This document shows positions 13,576 through 63,213 of a stretch of DNA of 64,000 nt, piece by piece. Every line of letters starts with the position of its first letter. Positions within the stretch are counted from its first letter, which is position 1. The position numbers and the translations under genes were made by a program. The stretch is from Anaerobiospirillum thomasii (GTDB taxonomy: Bacteria; Pseudomonadota; Gammaproteobacteria; Enterobacterales; Succinivibrionaceae): contig NZ_UAPU01000005.1 of NCBI RefSeq assembly GCF_900445255.1, forward strand, positions 321,001-385,000, written 5' to 3'. Under the pieces are notes generated by a model. That model was not told the origin of the DNA. It did no database searches and saw only the letters and a list, made by a program, of their open reading frames with translations.

Positions 13576-13733
13576 AGCAAGTTTTCCTTTGTTTGGTTTG
13601 GTTTGGTATATTATACCATGGAAACTTGCTATACCCCATAAAAATCCTTTATAAAACAATCTGTTAGATCGTTTTTAATACTTCTAACAACTTCTTTTTG
13701 TATCAGAATTGTATGTTTCCAAAAAAATCAAAC

Positions 13734-13790
13734 AAAAAACCCGCATCGAGGTCTTTTGCACTAATTTTTAGCACGATAGAATGCGGGTTT
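13734..13790 (-). terminator. Transposase-facing terminator inside IS4 copy 1
   Basis: On the minus strand AAACCCGCAT (complement of 13781-13790) pairs with ATGCGGGTTT (complement of 13737-13746) and runs into TTTTTTG and more T. It lies upstream of the transposase start, so it would stop transcription entering from flanking DNA. The 34-nt loop contains a smaller CTAA/TTAG hairpin. Confidence 0.7.
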
Positions 13791-13878
13791 GCGGAATGAT
13801 TTTAAGCCAAAAACTTCTGGATTTTAATAAATGCTTAAAAATCAAGACTTTACTAAGATCCTAGGTATGAAAAAAATC

Positions 13879-17159: not shown

Positions 17160-17270
17160 AAAGGAACACGCTCCTTTTGTCTAAAAAGAACATGCTCCTT
17201 TAATTAAAAGAACATGCTCCTTTAATTAAAAGAACATGTTCTTTTAACTTGTACCTTTAAATGTTCCTTT
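17160..17270. promoter_or_regulatory. Array of 18-bp palindromes (probable KfrA-like operators), copy 1
   Basis: Mirror of the array in copy 2. Four sites of the type AAAAGAACATGTTCTTTT at 17160-17177, 17184-17201, 17206-17223 and 17228-17245, plus a weaker half-site to 17270. Spacing is 22-24 bp. The array lies beyond the end of the KfrA-like gene, between it and the IS end. Confidence 0.75.
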
Positions 17271-17355
17271 AATTGTAATTTTTTGATTATAATCAAGTGG
17301 ATACTCAACAAAAAAGGCCAGCTTTTAAGCCAGCCCTTGTCTACTTTACCCAGTT

Positions 17356-17910
17356 TTATTTACCAAGCCTGGCTATAGCCTCCAGTATAGCCTGCTGCTT
17401 GTCATCGCTTTGCTGCTCCAGCCGCTTGGTTAAATGTGCGTTGGTCTTGGTTTGCTCCGCTAAAAGAGACTCAAGCTCTTTTATCCTTTCATCCTTTTTA
17501 GCAATTTGAGCATCTTGCTCTTTTAGCTTCTCCTGAGCTAGATGCAGCTCCTTTTGTGCCTCTGACATAAGCTCACCTATTTCCTTATGCTTTGCATCAT
17601 ACTCATTTTGCAGTCGGGTTCTGTCGGCATTGATCTTATCTCTAAAAGACTCAAACAGGTTTAATGCCACCCTTTGCATGTCCTGCTGGAAGCTTTCTGG
17701 CATAGTTTCATTAAAACTGGCCTCCATAATGGTTTTATTGTACTGACGCATAAATGCTGATATGGTTTTATTAGCGCCTCCGACAAGCTCTTTAATAGCA
17801 CGTATAGTCAGTTTTTTACCTTGCTTATTAAGGGTAGATACAGCCTCATCAAATTTCTCTTTGGTCAGATCGTCACGAAAAGCTTTTTTATCTGATTTAG
17901 ATGTTGTCAT
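17356..17910 (-). CDS. KfrA-like DNA-binding coiled-coil protein (IS21 copy 1)
   Basis: A 184-residue protein. Residues about 10-60 (LTKEKFDEAVSTLNKQGKKL then TIRAIKELVGGANKTISAFM) match the KfrA N-terminal helix-turn-helix domain of plasmid proteins. Residues about 90-175 are a continuous Glu/Lys/Gln/Ala coiled coil. Plasmid KfrA proteins bind inverted repeats, repress their own genes and help partition. The start at 17910 is preceded by CCTGGAGAA. A perfect palindrome (17932-17949) sits between istB and this start, suggesting self-repression. Such a gene is not a normal part of IS21; regulation of transposition or of the insertion site is my inference. It is identical in copy 2. Confidence 0.88.
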   Translation of the reverse strand: MTTSKSDKKAFRDDLTKEKFDEAVSTLNKQGKKLTIRAIKELVGGANKTISAFMRQYNKTIMEASFNETMPESFQQDMQRVALNLFESFRDKINADRTRLQNEYDAKHKEIGELMSEAQKELHLAQEKLKEQDAQIAKKDERIKELESLLAEQTKTNAHLTKRLEQQSDDKQQAILEAIARLGK

Positions 17911-17931
17911 AATAATTATTCTCCAGGTTTT

Positions 17932-17949
17932 AAAAGAGCATGCTCTTTT
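17932..17949. promoter_or_regulatory. Perfect 18-bp palindrome before the KfrA-like gene, copy 1
   Basis: AAAAGAGCATGCTCTTTT, in the 42-bp gap between istB and the KfrA-like start. It has the same consensus as the array at 17160-17245. Confidence 0.75.
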
Positions 17950-17952
17950 GAT

Positions 17953-18708
17953 TTAATCTTCATCAACAGAAGTACGGCGGGAAGTGCCTGGTACAATAAG
18001 TGTGTAATTATTGTTAGAGCATCGCTCAACAATAGATTCTGACAGTGAATCACCATCAATACCTCCTTTTAAAATATCAATCCAGGCATCTGGGGATTTT
18101 TGAGAGAGAATCACTGTGCTCTTTTTGCCATATCGCTTGTCCAGAATGTCAAATAAAATGCTTTTCTCGTCAGCATCATATGGGGTGAGGCAGAAGTCGT
18201 CCAGGATAAGCATGCTTTTACCTGTTATAACTTTTAACTTGGTGGCGTAGCTTGCAGAGCCTAAATTCATGTGCAGGTTGGCTATAATGTCTTTGGTTGA
18301 GTAGTATAAAGTTGAGTTGCCAAGACAGCAGTTGCGTCTCCCTAAAGCTGAAGCAATAAAGGTTTTACCAGATCCAGCTTTACCGTATATGGTCAGGTTG
18401 TAGCACTTTTCTACAAACTCAAGAGAGCTTAAGCTATCTATCTTATTGATAAATGTAGGGTCACTGCGTTCTAGATCTTTTAATATCATGCAAAGCTCTG
18501 CCTTTACCGGCAGTCTAGAAGCTTTAATTAAAGACTCCTGACGTCTTTTATTTCTTGTATTCTGCTCAGCTGTGAGCATATTGGTCAAAATGGTATCAAT
18601 GCTGGTGGCCTCCAGCTCCTGAGGGTTGTTTACATATGCATTAAACTGCTCTAAAGCTCCCCTCATATCCAGCTCACGTAATAAAGATTGAATATTTGTA
18701 AGTGACAT
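17953..18708 (-). CDS. istB: IS21 helper ATPase IstB (copy 1)
   Basis: A 251-residue AAA+ ATPase of the DnaC/IstB type that directs IstA to target DNA. Walker A is GKAGSGKTF near 116-124 and Walker B is MLILDDFC near 167-174. The start follows AGGAGTTAATT and lies nine bases after istA, so the two are translationally linked. Identical in copy 2. Confidence 0.95.
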   Translation of the reverse strand: MSLTNIQSLLRELDMRGALEQFNAYVNNPQELEATSIDTILTNMLTAEQNTRNKRRQESLIKASRLPVKAELCMILKDLERSDPTFINKIDSLSSLEFVEKCYNLTIYGKAGSGKTFIASALGRRNCCLGNSTLYYSTKDIIANLHMNLGSASYATKLKVITGKSMLILDDFCLTPYDADEKSILFDILDKRYGKKSTVILSQKSPDAWIDILKGGIDGDSLSESIVERCSNNNYTLIVPGTSRRTSVDED

Positions 18709-18717
18709 AATTAACTC

Positions 18718-20550
18718 CTAGCTAAGTTGATTTTTTATATAAGCAAAGCGCTCATCGTATACAGCATGGCCATTTAAAAATTCTTTAGGCCTAGATTGGT
18801 TCTCAGAACCCTGCGTAGATGAGGTTTGTGATGTGATTTCTTTTTGAGGCAATGGCCAGAGCATGAGATCGCAATGTCCTAAGATGACAGCTTCACCAAG
18901 GGCCATATAGGTCTTGTCATTGTAGACGTCATCATAATTGTATATGGCAGGCTTTTCATATCTCTCCCATATCTTTATAAGCTCAGAACATATGATACTG
19001 TCAAAGCCTTTGTACATATGCTCTTTGACGCAGCGATCAAAGATGCTGTAGTGAGCTTTATTGGCTTTAACAATGGTCAGGAATTTGTGTATATATCTTA
19101 TTTTGTCAGCATATCCATATTTGCAGTGCGTGAGCTGGAAATCACACCAGCTTTTAACATGCTCCCCAATAGCTTCTGCCCACTCCAACAGTAAATCTTC
19201 TTGATTTTTTATGCTAAAGATGTCATATATAAGGTGTTGTTTTTCAATAACACCATGGATGGCTGACAGGCCTTTTACGCCATCCATTCTTTTATAACTT
19301 ACAATAACAGTATCAAGGCTTAAAAAACTAACTGTCTGATTAGTGGTATGCACTGTGACTTTCTGTCCAATCCATTTAGATGGTATTGCGTATGTATGAT
19401 CTTCAAAAGTAAAGCGGGCAGTCTCAGACACTGTTATAATGAAGCTTTCAAAGAACCTGTAATCCCATGAGGCAGGCTGTTGCAATAAACCTTTTTCAAT
19501 ATCAAAAAGCTCCTTTCTTGAGCTCTTCATGCCCCTTACCTTGCATTCATTCATCCTGGCAATATGAGGCGCGATAAAAGAGTTTATCTCATCTAATGAA
19601 CTGAAAGGATTGCCGTCTTTTACGTGGTTGTTGGCAATAGACAGAGCATAACGGGTAACATACTTTACGGCAGCCTCGACAGCGCCCTTGTCTTTAGGCC
19701 GTCCGCTGCGACAGGTAAAGACCCCTATATTAAAAAACTCTTTAAAATTAATCATCTCATCTGTAAGCTGACCCTGATAACGAGCAGCCTTCTTAACAGC
19801 TGCTTTGAAATTATCAATGCGTATGACATGGGGACAGCCACCAAAATATCTAAAGCTGTCAGCTATGGCATCACACACCACAGGTTGAGACTGATTGGCA
19901 ATAGCTTTGACAAAGATATAGCGCGATCCGGTAAGTACAGCCACGATAAATGTGGCATAGTGGGTGGCGCCGTTAACCACATAGGGCAATCTAACTCCTG
20001 TAAAGTCATACTCAGCCTCACCAGCCATTTCATGCTCTTTCATATAGACAGGCTTCTTAATCTGTTTTTCATGCTCCCGCCATATATGGCATACACGAGA
20101 TAAAGACAAGAAGCTACTCTCTCCACTCTCAACGAGCTCTTTATTTTTTGGATCATTGAAGTAATAAAGTTCAATCACTGACTTCCTGGTTAAAGCCAGT
20201 TTCTTTTGTGACGGTGTCTTTGCCTCAAGATGCGACTTGATATATTTGTCTTGTAGGTAATCTATATCAGGCATAATTTTATTGTTGCTTTGTACAGGCC
20301 TTGTCTTTTTATAGTAGAGTTTATGAAGCTCTTTACTGGTCATACCTCCAATAGACTCTCGGGTTAACTTGAGCTCAGCAACTTTACGACGCAGACGCTG
20401 TGCCGTGCCATGAGAAAACCCCTCATGCTCCAGCTGTGCTGCCGTCATAGTCAGGGCTTTAATTAAAGCCCGCTTTAAGGTATCTGGATCCATTTGTCCT
20501 CCACTACCAATTTTCTTTTTATGTTTTGCAATGTAATTTATCCTTGGCAT
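18718..20550 (-). CDS. istA: IS21 transposase IstA (copy 1)
   Basis: A 610-residue transposase with an N-terminal helix-turn-helix region and an integrase (rve) core: AEYDFTGVRLPYV, then RIDNFKAAVKKAAR, and a SGRPKDKGAVEAAVKYVTRY block carrying the catalytic Glu. The start at 20550 follows a strong AAAGGAGG. It differs from copy 2 at four residues in the N-terminal third (for example TRESIGG against TLESIGG). It appears intact and is followed at once by istB. Confidence 0.95.
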   Translation of the reverse strand: MPRINYIAKHKKKIGSGGQMDPDTLKRALIKALTMTAAQLEHEGFSHGTAQRLRRKVAELKLTRESIGGMTSKELHKLYYKKTRPVQSNNKIMPDIDYLQDKYIKSHLEAKTPSQKKLALTRKSVIELYYFNDPKNKELVESGESSFLSLSRVCHIWREHEKQIKKPVYMKEHEMAGEAEYDFTGVRLPYVVNGATHYATFIVAVLTGSRYIFVKAIANQSQPVVCDAIADSFRYFGGCPHVIRIDNFKAAVKKAARYQGQLTDEMINFKEFFNIGVFTCRSGRPKDKGAVEAAVKYVTRYALSIANNHVKDGNPFSSLDEINSFIAPHIARMNECKVRGMKSSRKELFDIEKGLLQQPASWDYRFFESFIITVSETARFTFEDHTYAIPSKWIGQKVTVHTTNQTVSFLSLDTVIVSYKRMDGVKGLSAIHGVIEKQHLIYDIFSIKNQEDLLLEWAEAIGEHVKSWCDFQLTHCKYGYADKIRYIHKFLTIVKANKAHYSIFDRCVKEHMYKGFDSIICSELIKIWERYEKPAIYNYDDVYNDKTYMALGEAVILGHCDLMLWPLPQKEITSQTSSTQGSENQSRPKEFLNGHAVYDERFAYIKNQLS

Positions 20551-43978: not shown

Positions 43979-44201
43979 TTCATTTCCATCCAGCCTTCAT
44001 ATACAGATAGACAAAGTTAGTGGACAGCTATAGCTGCAAAATTAGAGCAGGTGGGTGCAACTTACTCGTAGCAATAAGCACGACAATATAAGAGCAGTCA
44101 GTGCTGACAAAGATGGGCTGATAGCAGTGACATTTTATGCAGCATATAGCATTCAGCAGCCAAATTCCTGTAAAGGGCACATCTGTAGCTTACAGATGGA
44201 T

Positions 44202-44243
44202 ATTCTATTTAATGCTGATCGTCAATTTCTACCAACAGAGATC
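44202..44243. repeat. Left-end IstA-type binding repeats
   Basis: ATTCTATTTAATGCTGATC (44202-44220) and TTTCTACCAACAGAGATC (44226-44243). They are inverse copies of the right-end repeats, as expected for multiple transposase binding sites. Confidence 0.75.
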
Positions 44244-44416
44244 GGGTAACTTTCTTTAATCAATGCCTTTTTAAATTTTTATCAATACCCCCAAAAATTT
44301 TTCAATATACCCCTTCTTTAAATTTTTTTAATGGTCCACTGTGAAATGTCATTTTTAATCCTATTTACATGTTAGAGCTCTAAAAGAAAAGATATAACTC
44401 TATTTTTTCAGCACAA

Positions 44417-44492
44417 CCTGCTGCCCCTGCCTATTGAATGATTAGCGTAGCTAACCCGAAGGGCTTGTCATTCAATAGGCAGGGGCAGCAGG
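44417..44492. repeat. Cruciform with two inner hairpins (copy A)
   Basis: The outer arms 44417-44441 and 44468-44492 are a perfect 25-bp inverted repeat. The loop (44442-44467) contains TTAGC-gta-GCTAA and CCC-gaa-GGG hairpins, forming a three-way junction. The same design with changed but compensating bases occurs at 63040-63113 in the ISL3 element. It may be a structured RNA, a DNA cruciform, or a REP-like element. Confidence 0.8.
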
Positions 44493-44735
44493 ATCGCAAA
44501 TTAAACTCATATAGACAGCATGGAACATGCTGTCGTCGCGGCTTTAGATACTTAAACACAGCAAAAAGATTTGCAATGCCCGCAATATCTATAAGATCCG
44601 GAAGCATTCCACAATATCCAGTTAAAAAAATCCTTAGGAAAATTCTTGATGATTAGAAGTTTGAAGTAGTATATTTCGCAATCAATCGTGCTTACAGACA
44701 CTGTAGGATTTAATATTTTATTTTTACTCAAAGGA

Positions 44736-44775
44736 ACTGTGGTTATCGTCGGTTGGAAGTCATGATAACCACAGT
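44736..44775. repeat. 12-bp perfect inverted repeat before the unknown gene
   Basis: ACTGTGGTTATC (44736-44747) and GATAACCACAGT (44764-44775), ending 14 bases before the ATG of the unknown gene. It could be an operator or a translation-blocking hairpin. Confidence 0.6.
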
Positions 44776-44788
44776 CTGACATATTGTC

Positions 44789-45547
44789 ATGCATAGTCTA
44801 TCACATAATCTATTTGATTATATATGTGATCAGGACGGACGTGTCCTTGTCACACTACAAGCCCCATATAAAAAGGAGCTTGAGGCAAAGTACTCACAAA
44901 AGTATCCTGGATGTCTTATTTATTATGAAAAGAAAATAAGGCACACAAAGCTTTGGCGAAACCAAACATTGCTGTTGAAGCTTGAAAATATCATTGTGGT
45001 AGACCACTTAGGCAGGAGACATAAAAGTATTATCCTGCCAGATTTTATTCTGCCATATACCAGATATACGGTACCATTTTTTACAATAATGCTTGCCAAC
45101 CTGTTTGATAAGAAGATTCAGGACAATCTCATTAAGAGTGACAATCTGGCCATGTACTTTATTGAGTTTATCGAACAGTTAAAGATGCATCCTGAGGCTT
45201 TAAATGTAAGAAATTTAGACGATAAACATAAAAATACTATTTACATGCAAATGCGGTACTACCTCAACGGCCGTATTAAGCAAGTCAGGCAGCACATCTA
45301 TGAATTAAAAGCTAATTTTATATCTCTTGGCAAAAACAATCTGCAATATGCAGAGCATTATCCTGCATTTGTGATAATGGGTATATCTATCAGGTTTATA
45401 AGTGACAGATTATTACGAAATCTGTACCAATACATATCAGCAACACTCATAAAAGCGTCTTTCAACCTGTTTTTCCCTACTTTTGTAAATCACTATAAAT
45501 CCATAAATAAAATACAGGCTCTGCAAGAAGTAATGCAGATGTTTTAA
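44789..45547 (+). CDS. Unknown protein carried by the IS21-type element, DUF6431-like centre
   Basis: A 252-residue protein I cannot name with confidence. Residues about 55-90 (TLLLKLENIIVVDHLGRRHK then SIILPDFILPYTRYTVPF) resemble the R-x-H-x-x-LPDFxxPYxRY core of DUF6431-type proteins, which normally also have zinc cysteines; those are mostly missing here. The rest is helical and basic. The start at 44789 has no clear ribosome site. It lies 21 bp before istA, between the IS ends, so it is part of the element, perhaps a transposition accessory. Confidence 0.65.
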   Translation: MHSLSHNLFDYICDQDGRVLVTLQAPYKKELEAKYSQKYPGCLIYYEKKIRHTKLWRNQTLLLKLENIIVVDHLGRRHKSIILPDFILPYTRYTVPFFTIMLANLFDKKIQDNLIKSDNLAMYFIEFIEQLKMHPEALNVRNLDDKHKNTIYMQMRYYLNGRIKQVRQHIYELKANFISLGKNNLQYAEHYPAFVIMGISIRFISDRLLRNLYQYISATLIKASFNLFFPTFVNHYKSINKIQALQEVMQMF

Positions 45548-45568
45548 ATTTATTTTTATGGGGGTGCT

Positions 45569-47254
45569 ATGCAAAACTCAAATCAAAGAAGCATCTCGCC
45601 CGAAAAACTGGATGCAATTGTTACATCTATATTTTCTGGGCGTAGTAGAGCTTTTATCTCTCAAAGTATTGGATGCTCAGTTAATACTGTTAAAAAAATT
45701 AGAAATATGCTCAAAGACAATGGAATTACCAGTATGGATGACTATGAAAAATATGGGCGAGAAAATTTTTTCCGTTTGTATACAAGTAGTTTCTACGGAA
45801 CAGGAGCCACAAGATCGAACCTATTTTTAACTCCTGATTTTACACAGATAGCGGGTAAAATCTCCTCTCATAGTGATATTGCCATTGAGTTTTTAAAATA
45901 TGAAAAGCACTGTGCAGAAACTGGACATACTGCTATGAGTAAGTCCAATTTTTATAAACGGGTTAAGAGCGAGGTAGAGCTTTTAAGAGCAAATGAAGAG
46001 CATGACAAAGAAAAACAGCAGCTTGCCTATCTGACACAGGATTATATTTATGGGGTTTATACAATGTGTGACCACTCAGGTCTGCGAACTCCTGTACTAA
46101 CACCAGATGGGACAGTTAACTGCTGGTATTTTGTAGTATGCTGGCCCTGCAGTAATTACGTCTATGCCCAGCTTGTAACATCGCAGACAGTAATGGAGAC
46201 CTGTACTGCACTTGCCAATGCTTTTACGCGCTGGGGTGTTCTGCCTATAAAGCTTAAGCATGATAACGCTAAGATCTATGTTACTACCAGACATAAAGGA
46301 GATGTTGTTTTCAATGACAGCTTTATAGGATTTTTAAATGAATTACATATACTGCCCGAGGCTGCAAAACCATACTACGGACAGGGTAAATCGCAGGCTG
46401 AGGCCAATGTAAACCTGATTCAAACCAGAGTCCACAGTCTTATATGTGAAGAGCTTGCTATAAGCAAGACACTTAAAGAGCATAACCGCGTACTTATGGA
46501 GTACGTGGATAAGTATATAAATCAGGCTCCATATAGGGGCAGCTCTATAGTAACACGTGAATTTCTATTTAAAAACAAGGAAAAACCTGCGGCAAGAGAG
46601 CTTACATCAAAGATTCCAGAGGTGGCTGTATGGAGGTATATGGTCAGAGTGCCACGCTCATATAAGATCAAGGAAAATGGGCACTGGTACTCTGTACCAT
46701 ATAAATATATCCACGAATTTGTAGATATAAAAATTACATCATCTAACGTTATATTCTACCTAAATGGCAGAATAATTGCCAGCCATGCCAGATGCGACGG
46801 TGATGGCTCAAGCGTCAGTGAGGAGCATATGACGCCTCAGCATAAGGAAATTAAAGCCAATGAACGCCTCTATAGCAGCAATGAGGATATCCTCAAAGAG
46901 GCGTCTGAGCTTAATGAATTTCTACATGTATTATGCCGCAGACGTCTGCAGGAGCAGGACAAAGTATCAGGCATGCAGCAGACAAATGCCAGAAGTAACT
47001 GCATAGCTATGATTAAAATGTTTAAGTCTAAATATCACTCTCAAGAGCTATTGTCCCAGGCATGCAAAAGTATGTGCGAACTTCCAGAAAGCATGCACAC
47101 TACGGCCACATTACAAAACATATATCAACAATTAAACAGAGAAAACATGCGCAGTGAATTATATACACAACACGAGACAAAACCAGAGCAGGCTGGTGTT
47201 TCAGACAATGAGCACAATGCCGATATTTATGCCCTGCGCGATAACAGAGACTAA
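45569..47254 (+). CDS. istA: IS21 transposase IstA (second type)
   Basis: A 561-residue transposase with an N-terminal helix-turn-helix (FISQSIGCSVNTVKKIRNML) and a central rve integrase core: TMCDHSGLRTPV with the first Asp, LKHDNAKIYVTTRHKG with the second, and PYYGQGKSQAEANVNLIQTR with the Glu. It is clearly different from IstA of the 4,011-bp element. The start at 45569 follows GGGGGTG. IstB follows after 21 bp. Confidence 0.93.
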   Translation: MQNSNQRSISPEKLDAIVTSIFSGRSRAFISQSIGCSVNTVKKIRNMLKDNGITSMDDYEKYGRENFFRLYTSSFYGTGATRSNLFLTPDFTQIAGKISSHSDIAIEFLKYEKHCAETGHTAMSKSNFYKRVKSEVELLRANEEHDKEKQQLAYLTQDYIYGVYTMCDHSGLRTPVLTPDGTVNCWYFVVCWPCSNYVYAQLVTSQTVMETCTALANAFTRWGVLPIKLKHDNAKIYVTTRHKGDVVFNDSFIGFLNELHILPEAAKPYYGQGKSQAEANVNLIQTRVHSLICEELAISKTLKEHNRVLMEYVDKYINQAPYRGSSIVTREFLFKNKEKPAARELTSKIPEVAVWRYMVRVPRSYKIKENGHWYSVPYKYIHEFVDIKITSSNVIFYLNGRIIASHARCDGDGSSVSEEHMTPQHKEIKANERLYSSNEDILKEASELNEFLHVLCRRRLQEQDKVSGMQQTNARSNCIAMIKMFKSKYHSQELLSQACKSMCELPESMHTTATLQNIYQQLNRENMRSELYTQHETKPEQAGVSDNEHNADIYALRDNRD

Positions 47255-47275
47255 CCTGATATGGAGATTTGAAGA

Positions 47276-48064
47276 ATGAATAATGTTTTAACAGCTGAGC
47301 AGAAAATACTTATCTCTACAATGTATGATGCTGAACTTGATGTCATGGTGGACACTATTATAAATCAGTTTAATTTCCCTAATATATATGAAGTTATGTC
47401 ATTTGAAGACAGAATGCAGGAAATTATAGGTCAGTATAAAAGCCATATTGAAAATAAAAGGTATAAGAGCATGATTAGGAACTCAAAAATCAGCCGAGTC
47501 TTTTATTTAAACCAGATCTGCCCTGACAGCTCTCGGGGTCTATCCAAGGCCATGTATGACACACTGCTTTCTATGACCTGGCTTAAAGAGGGTAAATCCT
47601 GCCTCTTATCAGGTCCTACAGGATCAGGTAAATCGACACTGGCAACAGCTTTAGCTGTCGAGGCTATGAAGATGGGTTATCCTGCTTTATTTATAAAAGC
47701 AAATGAGTTAGAGGCATTGCTCAATATAAAACAAAATGTCGAGCTTATAAACTATGTTAAGCGTCTGAAAAGATTTAAGGTCCTGGTTATAGATGATTTT
47801 GGCATACAGGTTATGAAAAATGGTATAGCCAACAAGTTTCTGGAGATTATAGATGCCAGATATGGTATTGGCTCTACAATCATAACAACACAGGTGAAGG
47901 CTGACAGTATCGCTTTAAGTATAGAAAAAGGCGCGGCCAGAGATGCTATTGTCGATAGACTCTTTAGAGAGGGTAAGGACTTAAAAATTGAACTTAAAGG
48001 AGACTCATTTAGACAAAGTGATAAGGAGTTAAAAGGAGAGAGCACAGACAGCGTAAAGTTATGA
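47276..48064 (+). CDS. istB: IS21 helper ATPase IstB (second type)
   Basis: A 262-residue AAA+ ATPase. Walker A is SGPTGSGKSTLATALA near 113-128, Walker B is VLVIDDFGIQ near 168-177. It follows GGAGATTTGAAG at a good distance. The pair with istA is complete and looks functional. Confidence 0.94.
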   Translation: MNNVLTAEQKILISTMYDAELDVMVDTIINQFNFPNIYEVMSFEDRMQEIIGQYKSHIENKRYKSMIRNSKISRVFYLNQICPDSSRGLSKAMYDTLLSMTWLKEGKSCLLSGPTGSGKSTLATALAVEAMKMGYPALFIKANELEALLNIKQNVELINYVKRLKRFKVLVIDDFGIQVMKNGIANKFLEIIDARYGIGSTIITTQVKADSIALSIEKGAARDAIVDRLFREGKDLKIELKGDSFRQSDKELKGESTDSVKL

Positions 48065-48090
48065 CGCCCAGCACTTATAAAACATTAAAC

Positions 48091-48115
48091 AACAGGACCC
48101 ACAAGGTCCTGTTTT
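48091..48115 (+). terminator. Terminator of the istAB operon (second type)
   Basis: AACAGGACC (48091-48099) pairs with GGTCCTGTT (48105-48113), then TT. Confidence 0.75.
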
Positions 48116-48129
48116 GCGTGGTTAAGGGG

Positions 48130-48287
48130 GATCTGTATTAGTAGAATATAAGGATCAAAGGGGTGTAGAAAGTTTGGATCAAAGGCATGAGAATATGACG
48201 ATCAGTATTAATAGAATTTTAGGTAAAATTAGAGTGGCCTGCAGCGGATCTGTGTTTGATAATATCCGGATCAAGATCTAATAGAAT
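48130..48287. repeat. Right-end IstA-type binding repeats
   Basis: GATCTGTATTAGTAGAAT (48130-48147), GATCAGTATTAATAGAAT (48200-48217) and GATCAAGATCTAATAGAAT (48269-48287), about 70 bp apart. The last joins the IS end. Confidence 0.8.
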
Positions 48288-48467
48288 TTCCATACAGAGA
48301 TAAACAACTGTGAATGTATGGTCTGAATTAAAAATTGCGATATTAAATACAGGGTGCTGATTATTTTTGATAGCAGGGCTATTAATTTATTTTTAGGGCT
48401 ATTTATTTTTTGTGCAAGTATTAGAATAAAAGCTTAGATGTAAAATTAAAAGAGATTAATAACTGCT

Positions 48468-50358: not shown

Positions 50359-51795
50359 TTAAGCCTTGATTGTAACATCAATTTTGTGCGGTATTAAAAA
50401 GTCTTTCGTCATATGGTGTGTATTGTAAATTTTATCGACCAGGAGGCTTACGTCCTTTTTAAGATCTATATCCCTTTGTGATGGTTTAGTTCGCATCATA
50501 GAATCTAAAAGACCTTCAAACTTGCTGATCTCATTGTATATTGTAGACTTAGCGCCTTTGACCATGGCTTTTAACAATGGTCCTATATCTCTGATAGAGG
50601 AAGCCATCTTTAACAGAGATATTTCCCGTTTTTTACGTTGGTAATCTCTTTTCTTTTTCTGAAGCTGTTTTGCTATAAGCTTTTTGATGAGGTATGAGCC
50701 AATACTTGCATAAATAAAGAGCAGGATAATTTCTTTGATGGACGAATTGATAGAGCAGAGGCTGTTGCTACTTTTAAGTGCTTTAAACATGATCTCGCAG
50801 GACCAGCGCGTCCTGTAAGTATCAGCTATAACTGATGCTGCTACACGGCTTGCATCTATGTTGGTGATGAAATAATTAAATTTATCATCAACAGGATTAT
50901 AGATACGAATCATCCTTAAAACGGTATCATCGTTAACCTGCACAGCCATATCAACCAGAGGATATTTGCTGCCATTTAAGTGCTGACATGGTTTGCATCC
51001 TTCAAATTCATGTAACGTGGCTCCGTTGCCATCCATTGCATGAATAATCTTATAGGCGCAATTCTCCTTGCCTCTGAATATAAAATAATGCCCCTTGGAT
51101 ATAAGTAGCAAATATAAAGCTTCAGATACATATCCCCTGTCGCACAGATATAACACCTGCTCATAGATATCTGGTGACAGGTGCTCTCTTTCATTGGCTA
51201 CAGCCTCCGTAATATCAATATGTGTAGGCATATTGTTTACAATAGAAAACCCCGTATGCAGTTTAATAGCGGCAGATTTTTTATCAGGGTTGGTCTTGTC
51301 AGGATTACGTGTTTTAGCCTTGCAGTTAAAGTTGTCATAGGCTGAGTATCTAAGGGAGATTTCAGAGCCATCCACCATGATAATATCATTAACACCGACA
51401 CTCTGCCTGTAAGCCTCAAGCAGTTTCAGACCAGTTTCATTAGTATCGTCTTTAACAAGCATAGAGAGGTTTTCTATAGTATTCTTCATAACTTCAAGCA
51501 GTCCCTCTGAACGCAGACGGTTGTGAAGAGCCTTTGAAGATATATCAATGCCAAACATGTCAGAATAGCACTTATGAAATCCATTTAAAGTAAAGGTTAT
51601 ATTGTTAGAGTTTTGGTTAGTAGAGGCATATGTTAAAAGAGCTGAGAGAAGTTCAGCTATTGTAACTTTTCTTTGCCTTTTGAGTGTGCCATTTTTTCTG
51701 GCAAAATTATTAATAAGCTCTTTGCTGAAGACGGTTAAAATATTTAAGAGTTCAGCTCTTTGAATATAGAGATTAATTTGAGATAATAAAGACAT
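50359..51795 (-). CDS. IS4-family transposase (copy 2)
   Basis: 478 residues, two substitutions from copy 1 (Ser in FSKELINN; Asn in DNFNCKAK). Catalytic blocks VDGSEISLRYSAYD, LCDRGYVSEA and YRTRWSCEIMFKALK are intact. Start at 51795 after AAAGGAAAA. Confidence 0.93.
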   Translation of the reverse strand: MSLLSQINLYIQRAELLNILTVFSKELINNFARKNGTLKRQRKVTIAELLSALLTYASTNQNSNNITFTLNGFHKCYSDMFGIDISSKALHNRLRSEGLLEVMKNTIENLSMLVKDDTNETGLKLLEAYRQSVGVNDIIMVDGSEISLRYSAYDNFNCKAKTRNPDKTNPDKKSAAIKLHTGFSIVNNMPTHIDITEAVANEREHLSPDIYEQVLYLCDRGYVSEALYLLLISKGHYFIFRGKENCAYKIIHAMDGNGATLHEFEGCKPCQHLNGSKYPLVDMAVQVNDDTVLRMIRIYNPVDDKFNYFITNIDASRVAASVIADTYRTRWSCEIMFKALKSSNSLCSINSSIKEIILLFIYASIGSYLIKKLIAKQLQKKKRDYQRKKREISLLKMASSIRDIGPLLKAMVKGAKSTIYNEISKFEGLLDSMMRTKPSQRDIDLKKDVSLLVDKIYNTHHMTKDFLIPHKIDVTIKA

Positions 51796-51953
51796 AGCAA
51801 GTTTTCCTTTGTTTGGTTTGGTTTGGTATATTATACCATGGAAACTTGCTATACCCCATAAAAATCCTTTATAAAACAATCTGTTAGATCGTTTTTAATA
51901 CTTCTAACAACCTCTTTTTGTATCAGAATTGTATGTTTCCAAAAAAATCAAAC

Positions 51954-52010
51954 AAAAAACCCGCATCGAGGTCTTTTGCACTAATTTTTAGCACGATAGA
52001 ATGCGGGTTT
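51954..52010 (-). terminator. Transposase-facing terminator inside IS4 copy 2
   Basis: Same 10-bp stem and T-tract as in copy 1 (13734-13790): AAACCCGCAT / ATGCGGGTTT read on the minus strand, upstream of the transposase start. Confidence 0.7.
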
Positions 52011-52097
52011 GCGGAATGATTTTAAGCCAAAAACTTCTGGATTTTAATAAATGCTTAAAAATCAAGACTTTACTAAGATCCTAGGTATGTAAGATAG

Positions 52098-56393: not shown

Positions 56394-58226
56394 ATGCCAA
56401 GGATAAATTACATTGCAAAACATAAAAAGAAAATTGGTAGTGGAGGACAAATGGATCCAGATACCTTAAAGCGGGCTTTAATTAAAGCCCTGACTATGAC
56501 GGCAGCACAGCTGGAGCATGAGGGGTTTTCTCATGGCACGGCACAGCGTCTGCGTCGTAAAGTTGCTGAGCTCAAGTTAACCCTAGAGTCTATTGGAGGT
56601 ATGACCAGTAAAGAGCTTCATAAAATCTACTATAAAAAGGCTAAGCCTGTACAAAGCAACAATAAAATTATGCCTGATATAGATTACCTACAAGACAAAT
56701 ATATCAAGTCGCATCTTGAGGCAAAGACCCCGTCACAAAAGAAACTGGCTTTAACCAGGAAGTCAGTGATTGAACTTTATTACTTCAATGATCCAAAAAA
56801 TAAAGAGCTCGTTGAGAGTGGAGAGAGTAGCTTCTTGTCTTTATCTCGTGTATGCCATATATGGCGGGAGCATGAAAAACAGATTAAGAAGCCTGTCTAT
56901 ATGAAAGAGCATGAAATGGCTGGTGAGGCTGAGTATGACTTTACAGGAGTTAGATTGCCCTATGTGGTTAACGGCGCCACCCACTATGCCACATTTATCG
57001 TGGCTGTACTTACCGGATCGCGCTATATCTTTGTCAAAGCTATTGCCAATCAGTCTCAACCTGTGGTGTGTGATGCCATAGCTGACAGCTTTAGATATTT
57101 TGGTGGCTGTCCCCATGTCATACGCATTGATAATTTCAAAGCAGCTGTTAAGAAGGCTGCTCGTTATCAGGGTCAGCTTACAGATGAGATGATTAATTTT
57201 AAAGAGTTTTTTAATATAGGGGTCTTTACCTGTCGCAGCGGACGGCCTAAAGACAAGGGCGCTGTCGAGGCTGCCGTAAAGTATGTTACCCGTTATGCTC
57301 TGTCTATTGCCAACAACCACGTAAAAGACGGCAATCCTTTCAGTTCATTAGATGAGATAAACTCTTTTATCGCGCCTCATATTGCCAGGATGAATGAATG
57401 CAAGGTAAGGGGCATGAAGAGCTCAAGAAAGGAGCTTTTTGATATTGAAAAAGGTTTATTGCAACAGCCTGCCTCATGGGATTACAGGTTCTTTGAAAGC
57501 TTCATTATAACAGTGTCTGAGACTGCCCGCTTTACTTTTGAAGATCATACATACGCAATACCATCTAAATGGATTGGACAGAAAGTCACAGTGCATACCA
57601 CTAATCAGACAGTTAGTTTTTTAAGCCTTGATACTGTTATTGTAAGTTATAAAAGAATGGATGGCGTAAAAGGCCTGTCAGCCATCCATGGTGTTATTGA
57701 AAAACAACACCTTATATATGACATCTTTAGCATAAAAAATCAAGAAGATTTACTGTTGGAGTGGGCAGAAGCTATTGGGGAGCATGTTAAAAGCTGGTGT
57801 GATTTCCAGCTCACGCACTGCAAATATGGATATGCTGACAAAATAAGATATATACACAAATTCCTGACCATTGTTAAAGCCAATAAAGCTCACTACAGCA
57901 TCTTTGATCGCTGCGTCAAAGAGCATATGTACAAAGGCTTTGACAGTATCATATGTTCTGAGCTTATAAAGATATGGGAGAGATATGAAAAGCCTGCCAT
58001 ATACAATTATGATGACGTCTACAATGACAAGACCTATATGGCCCTTGGTGAAGCTGTCATCTTAGGACATTGCGATCTCATGCTCTGGCCATTGCCTCAA
58101 AAAGAAATCACATCACAAACCTCATCTACGCAGGGTTCTGAGAACCAATCTAGGCCTAAAGAATTTTTAAATGGCCATGCTGTATACGATGAGCGCTTTG
58201 CTTATATAAAAAATCAACTTAGCTAG
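56394..58226 (+). CDS. istA: IS21 transposase IstA (copy 2)
   Basis: 610 residues with the same helix-turn-helix and integrase core as copy 1 (AEYDFTGVRLPYV, RIDNFKAAVKK, KDKGAVEAAVKYV). N-terminal differences from copy 1 are TLESIGG, KIYYKKAKPV. The start follows AAAGGAGG. Nothing suggests inactivation. Confidence 0.95.
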   Translation: MPRINYIAKHKKKIGSGGQMDPDTLKRALIKALTMTAAQLEHEGFSHGTAQRLRRKVAELKLTLESIGGMTSKELHKIYYKKAKPVQSNNKIMPDIDYLQDKYIKSHLEAKTPSQKKLALTRKSVIELYYFNDPKNKELVESGESSFLSLSRVCHIWREHEKQIKKPVYMKEHEMAGEAEYDFTGVRLPYVVNGATHYATFIVAVLTGSRYIFVKAIANQSQPVVCDAIADSFRYFGGCPHVIRIDNFKAAVKKAARYQGQLTDEMINFKEFFNIGVFTCRSGRPKDKGAVEAAVKYVTRYALSIANNHVKDGNPFSSLDEINSFIAPHIARMNECKVRGMKSSRKELFDIEKGLLQQPASWDYRFFESFIITVSETARFTFEDHTYAIPSKWIGQKVTVHTTNQTVSFLSLDTVIVSYKRMDGVKGLSAIHGVIEKQHLIYDIFSIKNQEDLLLEWAEAIGEHVKSWCDFQLTHCKYGYADKIRYIHKFLTIVKANKAHYSIFDRCVKEHMYKGFDSIICSELIKIWERYEKPAIYNYDDVYNDKTYMALGEAVILGHCDLMLWPLPQKEITSQTSSTQGSENQSRPKEFLNGHAVYDERFAYIKNQLS

Positions 58227-58235
58227 GAGTTAATT

Positions 58236-58991
58236 ATGTCACTTACAAATATTCAATCTTTATTACGTGAGCTGGATATGAGGGGAGCTTTAGAGCAGTT
58301 TAATGCATATGTAAACAACCCTCAGGAGCTGGAGGCCACCAGCATTGATACCATTTTGACCAATATGCTCACAGCTGAGCAGAATACAAGAAATAAAAGA
58401 CGTCAGGAGTCTTTAATTAAAGCTTCTAGACTGCCGGTAAAGGCAGAGCTTTGCATGATATTAAAAGATCTAGAACGCAGTGACCCTACATTTATCAATA
58501 AGATAGATAGCTTAAGCTCTCTTGAGTTTGTAGAAAAGTGCTACAACCTGACCATATACGGTAAAGCTGGATCTGGTAAAACCTTTATTGCTTCAGCTTT
58601 AGGGAGACGCAACTGCTGTCTTGGCAACTCAACTTTATACTACTCAACCAAAGACATTATAGCCAACCTGCACATGAATTTAGGCTCTGCAAGCTACGCC
58701 ACCAAGTTAAAAGTTATAACAGGTAAAAGCATGCTTATCCTGGACGACTTCTGCCTCACCCCATATGATGCTGACGAGAAAAGCATTTTATTTGACATTC
58801 TGGACAAGCGATATGGCAAAAAGAGCACAGTGATTCTCTCTCAAAAATCCCCAGATGCCTGGATTGATATTTTAAAAGGAGGTATTGATGGTGATTCACT
58901 GTCAGAATCTATTGTTGAGCGATGCTCTAACAATAATTACACACTTATTGTACCAGGCACTTCCCGCCGTACTTCTGTTGATGAAGATTAA
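58236..58991 (+). CDS. istB: IS21 helper ATPase IstB (copy 2)
   Basis: 251 residues, identical to copy 1. Walker A GKAGSGKTF, Walker B MLILDDFC. Starts nine bases after istA. Confidence 0.95.
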   Translation: MSLTNIQSLLRELDMRGALEQFNAYVNNPQELEATSIDTILTNMLTAEQNTRNKRRQESLIKASRLPVKAELCMILKDLERSDPTFINKIDSLSSLEFVEKCYNLTIYGKAGSGKTFIASALGRRNCCLGNSTLYYSTKDIIANLHMNLGSASYATKLKVITGKSMLILDDFCLTPYDADEKSILFDILDKRYGKKSTVILSQKSPDAWIDILKGGIDGDSLSESIVERCSNNNYTLIVPGTSRRTSVDED

Positions 58992-58994
58992 ATC

Positions 58995-59012
58995 AAAAGA
59001 GCATGCTCTTTT
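58995..59012. promoter_or_regulatory. Perfect 18-bp palindrome before the KfrA-like gene, copy 2
   Basis: AAAAGAGCATGCTCTTTT. It lies four bases past istB and about 20 before the KfrA-like start, an ideal place for self-repression. Confidence 0.78.
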
Positions 59013-59033
59013 AAAACCTGGAGAATAATTATT

Positions 59034-59588
59034 ATGACAACATCTAAATCAGATAAAAAAGCTTTTCGTGACGATCTGACCAAAGAGAAATTTGATGAGG
59101 CTGTATCTACCCTTAATAAGCAAGGTAAAAAACTGACTATACGTGCTATTAAAGAGCTTGTCGGAGGCGCTAATAAAACCATATCAGCATTTATGCGTCA
59201 GTACAATAAAACCATTATGGAGGCCAGTTTTAATGAAACTATGCCAGAAAGCTTCCAGCAGGACATGCAAAGGGTGGCATTAAACCTGTTTGAGTCTTTT
59301 AGAGATAAGATCAATGCCGACAGAACCCGACTGCAAAATGAGTATGATGCAAAGCATAAGGAAATAGGTGAGCTTATGTCAGAGGCACAAAAGGAGCTGC
59401 ATCTAGCTCAGGAGAAGCTAAAAGAGCAAGATGCTCAAATTGCTAAAAAGGATGAAAGGATAAAAGAGCTTGAGTCTCTTTTAGCGGAGCAAACCAAGAC
59501 CAACGCACATTTAACCAAGCGGCTGGAGCAGCAAAGCGATGACAAGCAGCAGGCTATACTGGAGGCTATAGCCAGGCTTGGTAAATAA
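59034..59588 (+). CDS. KfrA-like DNA-binding coiled-coil protein (IS21 copy 2)
   Basis: 184 residues, identical to copy 1. N-terminal KfrA-type helix-turn-helix (TIRAIKELVGGANKTISAFM) followed by a coiled coil (about 90-175, EKLKEQDAQIAKKDERIKEL). Start after CCTGGAGAA. Its intact frame in two independent insertions means it has been kept as a working part of the element. Confidence 0.88.
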   Translation: MTTSKSDKKAFRDDLTKEKFDEAVSTLNKQGKKLTIRAIKELVGGANKTISAFMRQYNKTIMEASFNETMPESFQQDMQRVALNLFESFRDKINADRTRLQNEYDAKHKEIGELMSEAQKELHLAQEKLKEQDAQIAKKDERIKELESLLAEQTKTNAHLTKRLEQQSDDKQQAILEAIARLGK

Positions 59589-59605
59589 AACTGGGTAAAG
59601 TAGAC

Positions 59606-59637
59606 AAGGGCTGGCTTAAAAGCTGGCCTTTTTTGTT
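59606..59637 (+). terminator. Terminator after the KfrA-like gene (copy 2)
   Basis: AAGGGCTGGCTT pairs imperfectly with AAGCTGGCCTT and runs into TTTT. The mirror copy lies at 17307-17338. Confidence 0.6.
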
Positions 59638-59673
59638 GAGTATCCACTTGATTATAATCAAAAAATTACAATT

Positions 59674-59784
59674 AAAGGAACATTTAAAGGTACAAGTTAA
59701 AAGAACATGTTCTTTTAATTAAAGGAGCATGTTCTTTTAATTAAAGGAGCATGTTCTTTTTAGACAAAAGGAGCGTGTTCCTTT
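59674..59784. promoter_or_regulatory. Array of 18-bp palindromes (probable KfrA-like operators), copy 2
   Basis: AAAAGAACATGTTCTTTT (59699-59716, perfect), AAAGGAGCATGTTCTTTT (59721-59738 and 59743-59760) and AAAGGAGCGTGTTCCTTT (59767-59784). Starts are 22, 22 and 24 bp apart, near two helical turns. A weak half-site precedes at 59674. The consensus equals the palindrome before the KfrA-like gene. Confidence 0.78.
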
Positions 59785-60182
59785 AATTTACATATTATGT
59801 GACATATGACGCCAATATGTTAGATATCTCTCAAAAACAATACAAGTTATGGTGCTTTTAAAGATCTTCTAAAAAAATATTTCAAGATCTTCTAGCGTAG
59901 CACAGCCAGATCTTTATGGACAATATTTCCTTATGTATCAATATGTTGTTATTGAAATTTGTTTTGCTACACTAGCTAGATTTAAGCCTCATGGGTTCAA
60001 AGTAACGGGAATTTCTACAAAAATAAGGTATTGACAAATTAAAAATGATGATGAAATAATAAAAAAGTAAGCCAAAAGGGATGAGATTTTGTCTTTTTGT
60101 GAGCTAAAAATACCCCAGAAGGTCATATTAAAAATTACCACTCCACGGATCTTCTAACACAAGATCGTCAGATCTTCTTCGC
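59785..60182. other. Non-coding right end of IS21 copy 2
   Basis: About 400 bp without an ORF. It contains several AGATCTTCT-type repeats (near 59865, 59882, 60148 and 60170), probably IstA binding sites. The mirror region is 16762-17159. Confidence 0.6.
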
Positions 60183-61226: not shown

Positions 61227-61471
61227 TTGTATCTCCTGTAATTATATTCAGCTCTCACAGCTTAAACTACTTGTTAATTTTTAGCATAATTCAAGTGTAA
61301 AAGTGTGTGTGCATTGTAGCAATTTTATAAAAAATATAAATATCAAATTTAACTTTTTAATGCATTTGTTGTCGTTAGCTTAATAAAGATGGCAAAAAGT
61401 TATATAAAGCCATACAAAATTACCATTTTCTGCATAGATACAATAACTTATAGACAACAAACGACTCATCC

Positions 61472-62929
61472 CTAAATTTGGGGGTTGACATTATTTTCAA
61501 CAGGCTCTGAAACTACGGCAGCTTTGAGAGTTGATTTTCTATCTCGAGACAGAGCCTGATGCATTTTCAATATATAGTACCCTATATCTCTAAAACCGTA
61601 TGCTACCCTTTTAATGGTTTTAAATTTAGCATTGCATCCCTCTAAAATACTGGTGTTTAAGCCAGTTGTAGCCGCATGAATAATATAACAGCTCCAATCT
61701 TTTAGCTTCTTGCAGAACCTTATCAGTAAAGGAATTTCTGTTGCTTCAGCTTGTGAATACAGGTTTTTAATTGCTGTTTCAACCTGCTCAGGTGTACCTC
61801 CGCTATGTCATAGATCTCTGATATGGTCTCCAAAAATTGATATTGTAAACAAGGTCTTATTCTGTTTGAGGGTTTCTACAAGATCTTTTTGCGACTCTTC
61901 AAGAGTGTTGAGTTTATCTGAGCCCATGTAAGTCAGCCACTTGCTCTGTCTAAGATCTTTTATACGCTTCTTGTATTCACTTTTCTTTTGTTGATACTCG
62001 CCGGCGTCCATGGCGCCAAGCTCCTTGCGTAAATCTTTTATTTTATCAAGCCTTATGGCATCTGCCACTTCACTGTTAAACTGTTGCAGGCAGTGGAATA
62101 AATCAAGCACTATCTTTGCATTAGGGCAGAGCTCTTTGACTAGATTCTGATATCCGCAGTTGCCATCCATTACTGCACCTTCAATCTGGTCAAGCAGTCC
62201 AAGCTCTTTTAATCTATCAAAGAATGGCCTTAAATCATCTTTCTTTCTGCCGTAGGCAGCATACAAAAGGCGCCTGGTATCGGCATCTATGATGACTGAT
62301 ATATACTTATGGTGCTTTTTAACGCTTATCTCGTCTATAGCTATGTTCCTAACGTCTTCAAGACTTATATCTTTGAACATCTCTATAAGCCTTGCCTTAT
62401 CAATGTTCCTGACAATATCTGCCTCTACAGCCGTGATAGAGCTTATTTTCTTTAAATCTAGATGACTCTCGCCCAAATCAAGAAGCTGCAGTATCTGCCC
62501 ATATAAGCGTAAGGTTATCCTATGATGCGGATGGACAAAGCTTGGCTTTAGCCATCTGGCATGGTCACATCCACAACAAATGACCTTAGGTACGCGTATC
62601 TTTAAAATAACCGCAAATGGTCCTAGTGTGCAATCTTTTACTGTGCGCTCTCCCCAGTCCTTTATATTTACTTTATGGCAGCCACAGAGTGGGCAGTTTT
62701 GTTCAAGCTCCTCTCTCCAAAGCGTATAGCCAAGATGATAGGTAACAGTCATTGCCATAGCATCTATTTCAGGCTCACCAGACATTACACAACCCGGGTA
62801 CATATTGAGAACGCCGTGTTCAAACTTACAGTGCATTAATTCATTAGCACTGGCTTTGATTAAAGTTTCATTTGTTTCTGTATTGGCAGCAGTGTAGGAA
62901 TTTATTATAATAGCACTAGGCTCTGTCAT
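61472..62929 (-). pseudogene. ISL3-family transposase with an in-frame stop
   Basis: The gene would encode 485 residues but a TGA at codon 374 (61808-61810, in RDL-stop-HSGGTPEQV) interrupts it. The frame resumes in the same register and continues through AYGFRDIGYYILKMHQ, the typical ISL3 C-terminus, to TAG at 61472. N-terminal zinc finger (CPLCGCHK, then CCGCDHARW) and the DDE core (IAIDEISVKKHHKYISVIID, VMDGNCGYQNL) are recognisable. Relatives often have Trp at the stop position, so a TGG-to-TGA change is probable. The start at 62929 follows AAAGGAAAG. Confidence 0.9.
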
Positions 62930-63039
62930 ATTCTTTCCTTTGGTCGGGTAAAGTTGTTGTCAGGGCCCTTATTTTATCTGAAATATAAAAATTAATCTCA
63001 AGGGAAAAATCTTTGGGATTTTTCATAAAGCTTTAGCAA

Positions 63040-63113
63040 ATGCAAAAGACTGACAGTCAATGATTGGCAAAGCCAACCCGTAAGGGCTCGTCATTGACGG
63101 ACAGTTTTTGCAT
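63040..63113. repeat. Cruciform with two inner hairpins (copy B)
   Basis: The outer arms (63040-63063 and 63091-63113) pair with a few mismatches. The loop contains TTGGC-aaa-GCCAA and CCC-gtaa-GGG. Compared with copy A (44417-44492), the inner stem has changed TTAGC/GCTAA to TTGGC/GCCAA, keeping pairing. Confidence 0.78.
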
Positions 63114-63127
63114 TGACAATTTGGCCG

Positions 63128-63155
63128 GGTCTTAAGCATTCTTGTGCTTAAGACC
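63128..63155. repeat. 11-bp perfect hairpin in the ISL3 leader
   Basis: GGTCTTAAGCA (63128-63138) and TGCTTAAGACC (63145-63155). No T-run follows on either strand; it may help stop readthrough into the transposase. Confidence 0.6.
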
Positions 63156-63213
63156 ATAGATACCGTTTGCGATCTTGGGTCAACCCCCAATTTCAGGGAA
63201 GAACCCAACAAAC

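Follow-up and report, generated by a model that had tools for sequence, protein, structure and literature searches.

The two three-way-junction hairpins of this window belong to a large family found on tiny plasmids, on conjugative plasmids and in three kinds of jumping gene, and most likely act as single-stranded DNA, as a start site for the second strand. We give a probability of about one half to the reading that the feature is an sso/ssi-type single-strand initiation hairpin of plasmids that was captured by copy-out-paste-in IS families, with priming inferred from context. Direct observation covers the structure with its covariation, the distribution of the family, the plasmid settings and the occurrence in three IS families. 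The window is the whole stretch of DNA analysed, 64,000 nucleotides in length, and its relevant features are collected in Table 1.

Table 1. Hairpins and host elements in the window
Feature	Coordinates	Strand	Description	Basis
IS21-like element	44197..48292	+	~4.1 kb, ends TGGATATTC...TTTCCA, 6-bp target duplication TACAGA	
Three-way-junction hairpin, IS21-like element	44417..44492	+	outer arms 44417-44441 / 44468-44492, 25 bp, perfect	sequence, inverted repeat, DNA fold, covariance-model match 44432-44477 (57.8 bits)
Hairpin A, IS21-like copy	44442..44454	+	TTAGC / GTA loop / GCTAA	sequence, DNA fold
Hairpin B, IS21-like copy	44455..44463	+	CCC / GAA loop / GGG	sequence, DNA fold
Unpaired CTTG junction strand, IS21-like copy	44464..44467	+		DNA fold
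ORF of 252 aa, IS21-like element	44789..45547	+	no Pfam or NCBIfam match	
IstA-like transposase	45569..47254	+	561 aa	Pfam / NCBIfam profiles
IstB-like ATPase	47276..48064	+	262 aa	Pfam / NCBIfam profiles
ISL3-family element	61463..63205	-	1743 bp, ends GACTCATCCC...GGGAAGAACC, 8-bp target duplication CAACAAAC	
ISL3 transposase frame	61808..62929	-	373 aa	Pfam / NCBIfam profiles
Three-way-junction hairpin, ISL3 element	63040..63113	+	outer arms 63040-63063 / 63091-63113, imperfect	sequence, DNA fold, covariance-model match 63054-63100 (56.5 bits)
Hairpin A, ISL3 copy	63064..63076	+	TTGGC / AAA loop / GCCAA	sequence, DNA fold
Hairpin B, ISL3 copy	63077..63086	+	CCC / GTAA loop / GGG	sequence, DNA fold
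Unpaired CTCG junction strand, ISL3 copy	63087..63090	+		DNA fold

Structure of the window hairpins

Both hairpins share one plan in the DNA fold: an outer stem, a 5-bp hairpin A, a CCC/GGG hairpin B and a 4-nt CTTG or CTCG strand. The original prediction, which described two structures of the same plan, had their coordinates exactly, and each folds as DNA into a three-way junction, with energies of -34.9 (z -12.3) for 44417-44492 and -21.9 (z -7.0) for 63040-63113. Its statement that the outer arms differ completely and yet pair holds for most of their length, but the inner AATGA/TCATT is common to both. A core pattern shared by the two hairpins has a chance expectation of 0.00 in the window at up to three mismatches; in its fixed-length form it matches only the ISL3 copy, because the IS21-like copy has one base fewer in loop B.

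Folded as RNA, the same stretches reach -57.7 kcal/mol (z -11.3) and -29.9 kcal/mol (z -5.2), and none of 200 shuffles is as stable. These strong folds, along with the tolerance of G.U-type pairs among family members (8 cells of the alignment), would suit a structured RNA, or control of rep and transposase genes at the RNA level through a leader, a terminator or an antisense RNA. However, the junction is the best fold of the + strand of the IS21-like copy with DNA parameters and not with RNA parameters, and by eye no T-run follows either hairpin. Rfam at gathering score reports only three tRNAs in the window and no family over the hairpins; below that score its matches are of microRNA type, fall on the palindrome and are not credible, and the hairpins of nine other loci match nothing. 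The position of the hairpin also varies among its host elements in this genome, being upstream and sense relative to the transposase in the IS21-like element, upstream and antisense in the ISL3 element, and downstream and antisense in an IS256-family element described below, which indicates that it is not tied to transposase transcription. The structured RNA proposed among the original possibilities is therefore distinctly unlikely.

Copies and host elements in this genome

The assignment of the two window hosts to IS21-type and ISL3 elements in the original prediction is borne out at Pfam cut-offs by the IstB_IS21, Mu-transpos_C_2 and DDE_Tnp_ISL3 profiles. We use the name IS21-like because the NCBIfam IS21 and ISL3 models score below their curated cut-offs. 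The hairpin begins 220 bp from the left end of the IS21-like element, which has identical copies on contigs C6 and C7, and in the ISL3 element it ends 92 bp from the right end. The open frame of the window ISL3 transposase spans 383 aa, as does that of the copy at C5:799687, compared with 494-495 aa in most other copies.

The exact core pattern occurs 14 times in the genome (8 forward and 6 reverse; the reversed control pattern gives 0). Ten of these copies belong to ISL3 elements, three to IS21-like copies that are identical, and the last to an IS21-like remnant. The covariance model R2 raises the number of matches to 25, of which 22 lie inside three unrelated IS: ISL3, IS21-like and IS256. 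Seven of the additional matches are in the IS256-family element, a 1643-bp host with PF00872 at 345.5 bits and 8-bp target duplications in all four copies inspected, although one IS256 copy may be double-counted because contigs C4 and C6 share a 7-kb stretch that matches at 99.6%. One further match is a variant on contig C2 that adjoins a shortened IS256-family transposase, and three are degenerate copies whose flanks resemble ISL3 relics by eye. With 22 of 25 matches in the three IS and the other three resembling ISL3 relics, the genome has no clear solo copy. The third host strengthens the earlier proposal that a module entered unrelated IS, and the covariance-model matches, in three IS and on plasmids, extend the family beyond exact repeats of one IS end.

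Among related ISL3- and IS21-type transposase loci in other genomes of the family, which are distant and often partial relatives, none of 47 has a model match at E 0.5. These 47 remain from a set of 60 loci once four belonging to this genome and nine that are weak or damaged (L057, L062-L066, L094, L098, L099) are set aside. A looser core pattern likewise has no match in 40 sampled relatives.

Two arrangements within this genome deserve mention on their own. In the IS21-like remnant at G000:C5:1022395-1022440 (L032, 6888-7345), the tip of the hairpin stands in inverted orientation to the flank, as though template switching or cruciform processing had turned the inter-arm spacer around. A tandem pair of ISL3 elements 5 bp apart, at G000:C5:539623-543122 (L037, 2128-5619), resembles an IS dimer; it fits the dimers known for such elements and proves nothing about the hairpin.

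Covariation and consensus shape

The earlier argument that covariation points to selection on structure was thin when it rested on two sequences and becomes strong with the enlarged family. In a first alignment of nine sequences, pairing holds in 96.1% of cells, and double-sided changes occur at 9 of 17 pairs. Alignment A4, with 38 distinct rows, has 92.1% of cells paired and 12 of 17 pairs changing on both sides, although it was fitted to the structure of the model and so leans towards it. Its covariation score is 0.376, compared with 0.092 after shuffling and at most 0.039 with partners slid. Against 500 shuffles, A4 lies above all on four of five measures, the fifth (further pair types) being reached by 11 of 500. 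Wobble cells number 8 for G.T and 3 for A.C; this asymmetry, which might have distinguished the acting strand, or RNA from DNA, is weak.

The two-hairpin tip appears in the own short fold of 31 of the 38 distinct rows; the other seven (L192, a relic; L202; L194; L195; L218; L212; L210:412) were kept in the pair count. A GNA or GNNA sequence forms loop B in 29 of these 31 rows and loop A in 18. C-GNA-G is an unusually stable DNA mini-hairpin, and loops of this type thus favour DNA over RNA, as a lead and not as a test.

The sequences of stem A and the outer stem vary widely across members, which is what would be expected if any stable hairpin could serve and the likeness reflected only selection for compact, GC-rich loops. 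Such convergence is nevertheless highly improbable, given the same order of parts, a CTTG linker in 13 of the 20 rows readable by script, CC/GG pairs in hairpin B that never vary in A4, and significant sequence similarity between replicons.

Copies in other genomes

Matches in sampled genomes are sparse at each taxonomic level, and the counts of the larger searches are lower bounds, because their E-values are rough and their filters stricter; the R2 matches in this genome itself number 25, 16 and 15 in the family, class and phylum searches, respectively. R1 matches 5 of 394 genomes of the order at E 0.01. R2 matches 3 of 56 genomes of the family at E 0.05 (about 3 expected by chance), 3 of 369 genomes of the class at E 0.001 and 15 of 398 genomes of the phylum at E 0.0005. 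This genome is included in every count. Ten phylum loci (L240-L246, L248-L250) re-score at 35-48 bits. Of 11 phylum loci folded, L240-L247, two of them alike, form a two-hairpin junction on a long stem, L248 is a variant, and L249 and L250 have an extra hairpin. Apart from G882 (L248), these genomes belong to another class of the phylum, probably the alphaproteobacteria.

Some copies on large contigs adjoin housekeeping genes (His_biosynth, TP_methylase, Peptidase_M1, SIS). Nothing marks these copies plainly as mobile, and they pose the greatest difficulty for the plasmid reading. Two genomes from a single genus, G959 and G936 (L241 and L242), have the hairpin ~0.8 kb downstream of a His_biosynth gene in the same orientation, a conserved chromosomal position.

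Such dispersed copies, situated on large contigs in other classes of the phylum, together with two 255-bp blocks in genome G737 that are 85% identical, raise the alternative of a selfish REP- or MITE-like palindrome that spreads by itself or through a transposase in trans, its fold being the target of the mobilising enzyme. Palindromes tagged with CGTC and lacking a dedicated transposase do exist, mostly in alphaproteobacteria; as defined in an excerpt of the source, they combine the tag with a simple stem of 8-9 bp, a loop of 4-5 bases and a CCA-type tail (PMC3733652). The likeness ends with the prevalence of transposase-free palindromes in that class: on the definition in this excerpt, an identity with CGTC REPs was rejected, since 31 of 38 distinct rows have the two-hairpin tip, and, unlike those simple stems, the present structure is a three-way junction that tips a longer stem, on plasmids and inside IS. 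A REP-like repeat served by a tyrosine transposase, as originally suggested, finds no partner here, with 0 matches to the Y1 transposase family PF01797 in this genome and a positive control found in 5 of 14 known genomes. The lack of a clear solo copy also speaks against it, and carriage by plasmids with little spare DNA suggests need over chance landing. We consider a selfish palindrome rather unlikely.

Several other loci have individual features. At L194 (4343-4392; G168:C104), the copy adjoins large ORFs that resemble a tyrosine-recombinase module, with one weak Phage_integrase match. At L212 (1070-1107; G060:C9), a very long hairpin follows closely after an IS3-type orfB; it has hairpin A without hairpin B and may be a simplified relative within a further IS family of the copy-out type. 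Two candidates were not counted as members: G328 (L176), which lacks hairpin B and whose E of 0.0077 in 394 genomes is about the level of chance, and G017 (L213), whose fold has no junction. Exact core patterns in genome and viral contigs gave 24 and 34 stretches, which were taken as chance because none, in 72-76-base pieces folded as RNA, formed a full junction by eye. Stricter patterns in viral contigs returned one stretch each, L171 at only 14.3 bits and L170 with no R1 match up to E 1.

The plasmid family

When plasmids are searched by blastn with the ISL3 hairpin, Pasteurella and Glaesserella plasmids match at E 0.1. The match covers the hairpin tip only, and the same junction stands there at the end of a near-palindrome of ~120 nt. 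With the Pasteurellaceae core as query, 23 plasmid records match, 18 of them covering at least 80% of the query; with the core of a small Shigella plasmid, 138 match and 78 do so. A further core leads to Neisseria lactamica and to one Streptomyces plasmid, at 39.5 and 42.9 bits to R2. Hosts span Pasteurellaceae, Enterobacterales, Pseudomonas, Zymomonas and, with a single plasmid, Pseudanabaena. In E. coli, one variant matches in 7 of 5,426 genomes, at 8 places, all on plasmids. The IS21 hairpin as a plasmid query returns one unrelated record only, the IS256 hairpin gives six partial matches in the plasmid collection with no other IS256-type carrier recognised, and none of the 21 and 14 records from two phage searches covers 80% of the query.

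In all, 27 plasmid records or stretches of records were examined, with gene tables from PLSDB that are incomplete. Small carriers measure 1.2-3.6 kb and encode RepL, Rep_1 or putative HTH Reps, and conjugative Pasteurellaceae plasmids carry the hairpin as well. Nine plasmids of 1.2-1.6 kb have a single annotated gene in these tables, a rep or putative rep, and the hairpin lies outside it; in the plasmids read, no annotated gene lies underneath a match. The associated Rep types are unrelated: RepL (PF05732), Rep_1 (PF01446, pC194-type), RepA_C, proteins with only an HTH and proteins with no Pfam match. As carriers include Rep_1, RepL and conjugative MOBP plasmids, their Rep and relaxase types suggest that these replicons would pass through a single-stranded stage.

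The strand of the hairpin relative to rep is biased. Among 23 plasmid loci with an annotated or putative rep, counts that are not independent because many of the loci are close kin, a sole copy runs opposite to rep in 17 and the same way in 2 (L204, L167), and 4 have copies on both strands (L168, L198, L205, L210), the second L210 copy being weak at 27.3 bits. The counts were collated by hand and cover only part of the record for L160, L161, L167 and L169; L165, with no rep annotated, and L203, a same-way relative of L204, were left out, and the rep of L168 (pVT745), annotated as hypothetical, was taken as such from its likeness in place to that of L169. The layout of the four plasmids with copies on both strands recalls opposed ssi sites. 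In the Rep_1 plasmids pZMO1A and pAK51 (L203, L204), a dso-like motif, which we take to be a pC194-type site, lies on one strand with rep and the model strand of the hairpin, which is the layout that an sso requires.

Each of the six plasmids read that have an annotated MobV-type gene carries, on the mob-sense strand, a copy 216-390 bp upstream of this gene (two of them, L165 and L166, are close kin), and conjugative pVT745 has one copy near mob and another near a rep-like gene. Taken with the copy beside tyrosine-recombinase-like ORFs, the positions near mob might suggest that the hairpin works in single-stranded form as a site for conjugation or recombination, such as an oriT mimic or a resolvase or integrase site that mobilises tiny plasmids or IS-bearing DNA. 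However, several minimal plasmids without an annotated mob also carry it, the other copy of pVT745 lies near its rep-like gene, and by eye no conserved nick-like core runs through members with different outer stems. Of the recombination site originally proposed, the action as single-stranded DNA is favoured, but recombination itself is very unlikely, and a start site for second-strand synthesis is preferred because minimal plasmids with unrelated Reps share the junction.

Relation to known systems

No sso or other element of such a fold came up among the literature listings and excerpts surveyed, which mostly do not extend to older ssi-site papers. On this basis and on Rfam the fold is apparently uncatalogued. 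We treat it as a candidate hairpin for single-strand initiation, whose assignment to any known sso class is not established. The IncQ plasmid RSF1010 carries ssiA and ssiB, opposed initiation hairpins on its two strands, and the four plasmids with copies on both strands would resemble such opposed sites. The phiX174-type primosome site was rejected as an identity: the phiX174 stretch 2200-2500, which we take to hold the initiation site, scores only 6.4 bits to R2, and its intergenic part folds differently. The Gram-positive CS-6 motif, presumably TAGCGT/TAGCGA, was dropped as a mark of the family, as it is present in some members and not all, by eye. An excerpt of PMC10378824 quotes the motif as TAGCGA/T.

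According to the available portion of one source, sso and ssi sites are served by host enzymes without Rep, and at the ssi or primosome assembly site of phiX174 a host primase complex starts the complementary strand on single-stranded DNA (PMC5714925). The likeness to this phage site concerns the proposed role only, as a site on single-stranded DNA for the start of the complementary strand. An sso begins the lagging strand through these enzymes (PMC5714925, PMC6607859). The Gram-positive origins ssoA and ssoU of pMV158, as described in part of PMC6607859, offer a parallel in that they too are hairpins on small plasmids with different Reps, and copies here lie upstream of MobV-type genes. Unlike them, the present family has a branched three-way tip, GNA-type loops and hosts that are mostly Proteobacteria. 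A link between IS and sso function appears in the excerpted account of ISLrh in pGK12, in which an inverted repeat carried by the IS and situated upstream of the sso alters the plasmid's ability to replicate in a host (PMC12016507). Unlike the hairpin described here, that case involves a terminal repeat of an IS5-family element, and the excerpt claims no sso-like fold.

Proposed function

When its strand becomes single-stranded, the outer stem would fold and display a junction made up of the two small hairpins A and B and the 4-nt strand. Host replication machinery, such as a priming or primosome-loading factor, may recognise this junction and start the second strand, so that the hairpin would serve as a single-strand origin (sso/ssi) of rolling-circle and conjugative plasmids. 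An initiation site is the simplest reading because it accounts at once for minimal plasmids, unrelated Reps, the strand bias, copies lying upstream of mob and the pair of copies on a conjugative plasmid. Against this reading stand the housekeeping-gene neighbours, the both-strand copies on four plasmids, the phiX174 mismatch, the weak wobble asymmetry, the close kinship of many loci behind the strand counts and the lack of another recognised IS256-type carrier in the plasmid collection.

The three IS of this genome may have captured such a plasmid-type site. According to the available part of PMC9333248, the copy-out-paste-in families include IS21, IS256 and ISL3, and host replication processes their figure-eight; the ISL3, IS21-like and IS256 hosts identified by Pfam correspond to families on that list. 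Because the host must replicate these elements during copy-out-paste-in, a built-in initiation site could aid copying out or second-strand synthesis. Copy-out does not require the hairpin, since none of the 47 distant ISL3/IS21 relatives carries it, and it would be at most an optional aid. We infer that the hairpin acts as DNA, primes synthesis and helps transposition.

A wider formulation is tentative and on balance doubtful: an undescribed class of single-strand initiation signal, recognised by shape as a three-way DNA junction with GNA mini-hairpins, would serve plasmids of Proteobacteria and single plasmids of Cyanobacteria and Actinomycetes, and would have been captured by copy-out IS to load the host replisome on their own single-stranded intermediate. 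If true, this would link plasmid second-strand origins to IS transposition. The second-strand start of Gram-negative rolling-circle and conjugative plasmids seems, as an impression, poorly catalogued. Shared by minimal plasmids, conjugative plasmids and IS, a signal defined by shape would supply a mark by which to search for this start, might account for some of the host range of plasmids, and allows a test of whether copy-out IS carry their own replication-loading site.

Other repeats in the window

Two further repeats lie in the window. A block that contains clustered palindromes and ORFs of 610, 251 and 184 aa is present as an inverted duplicate at 17145-20550 and 56394-59799 and is probably another mobile element. 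A 506-aa ORF occurs twice, at 12139-13803 and 50359-52023, each time adjoining the same 23-bp imperfect inverted repeat, and the pair probably represents another IS.
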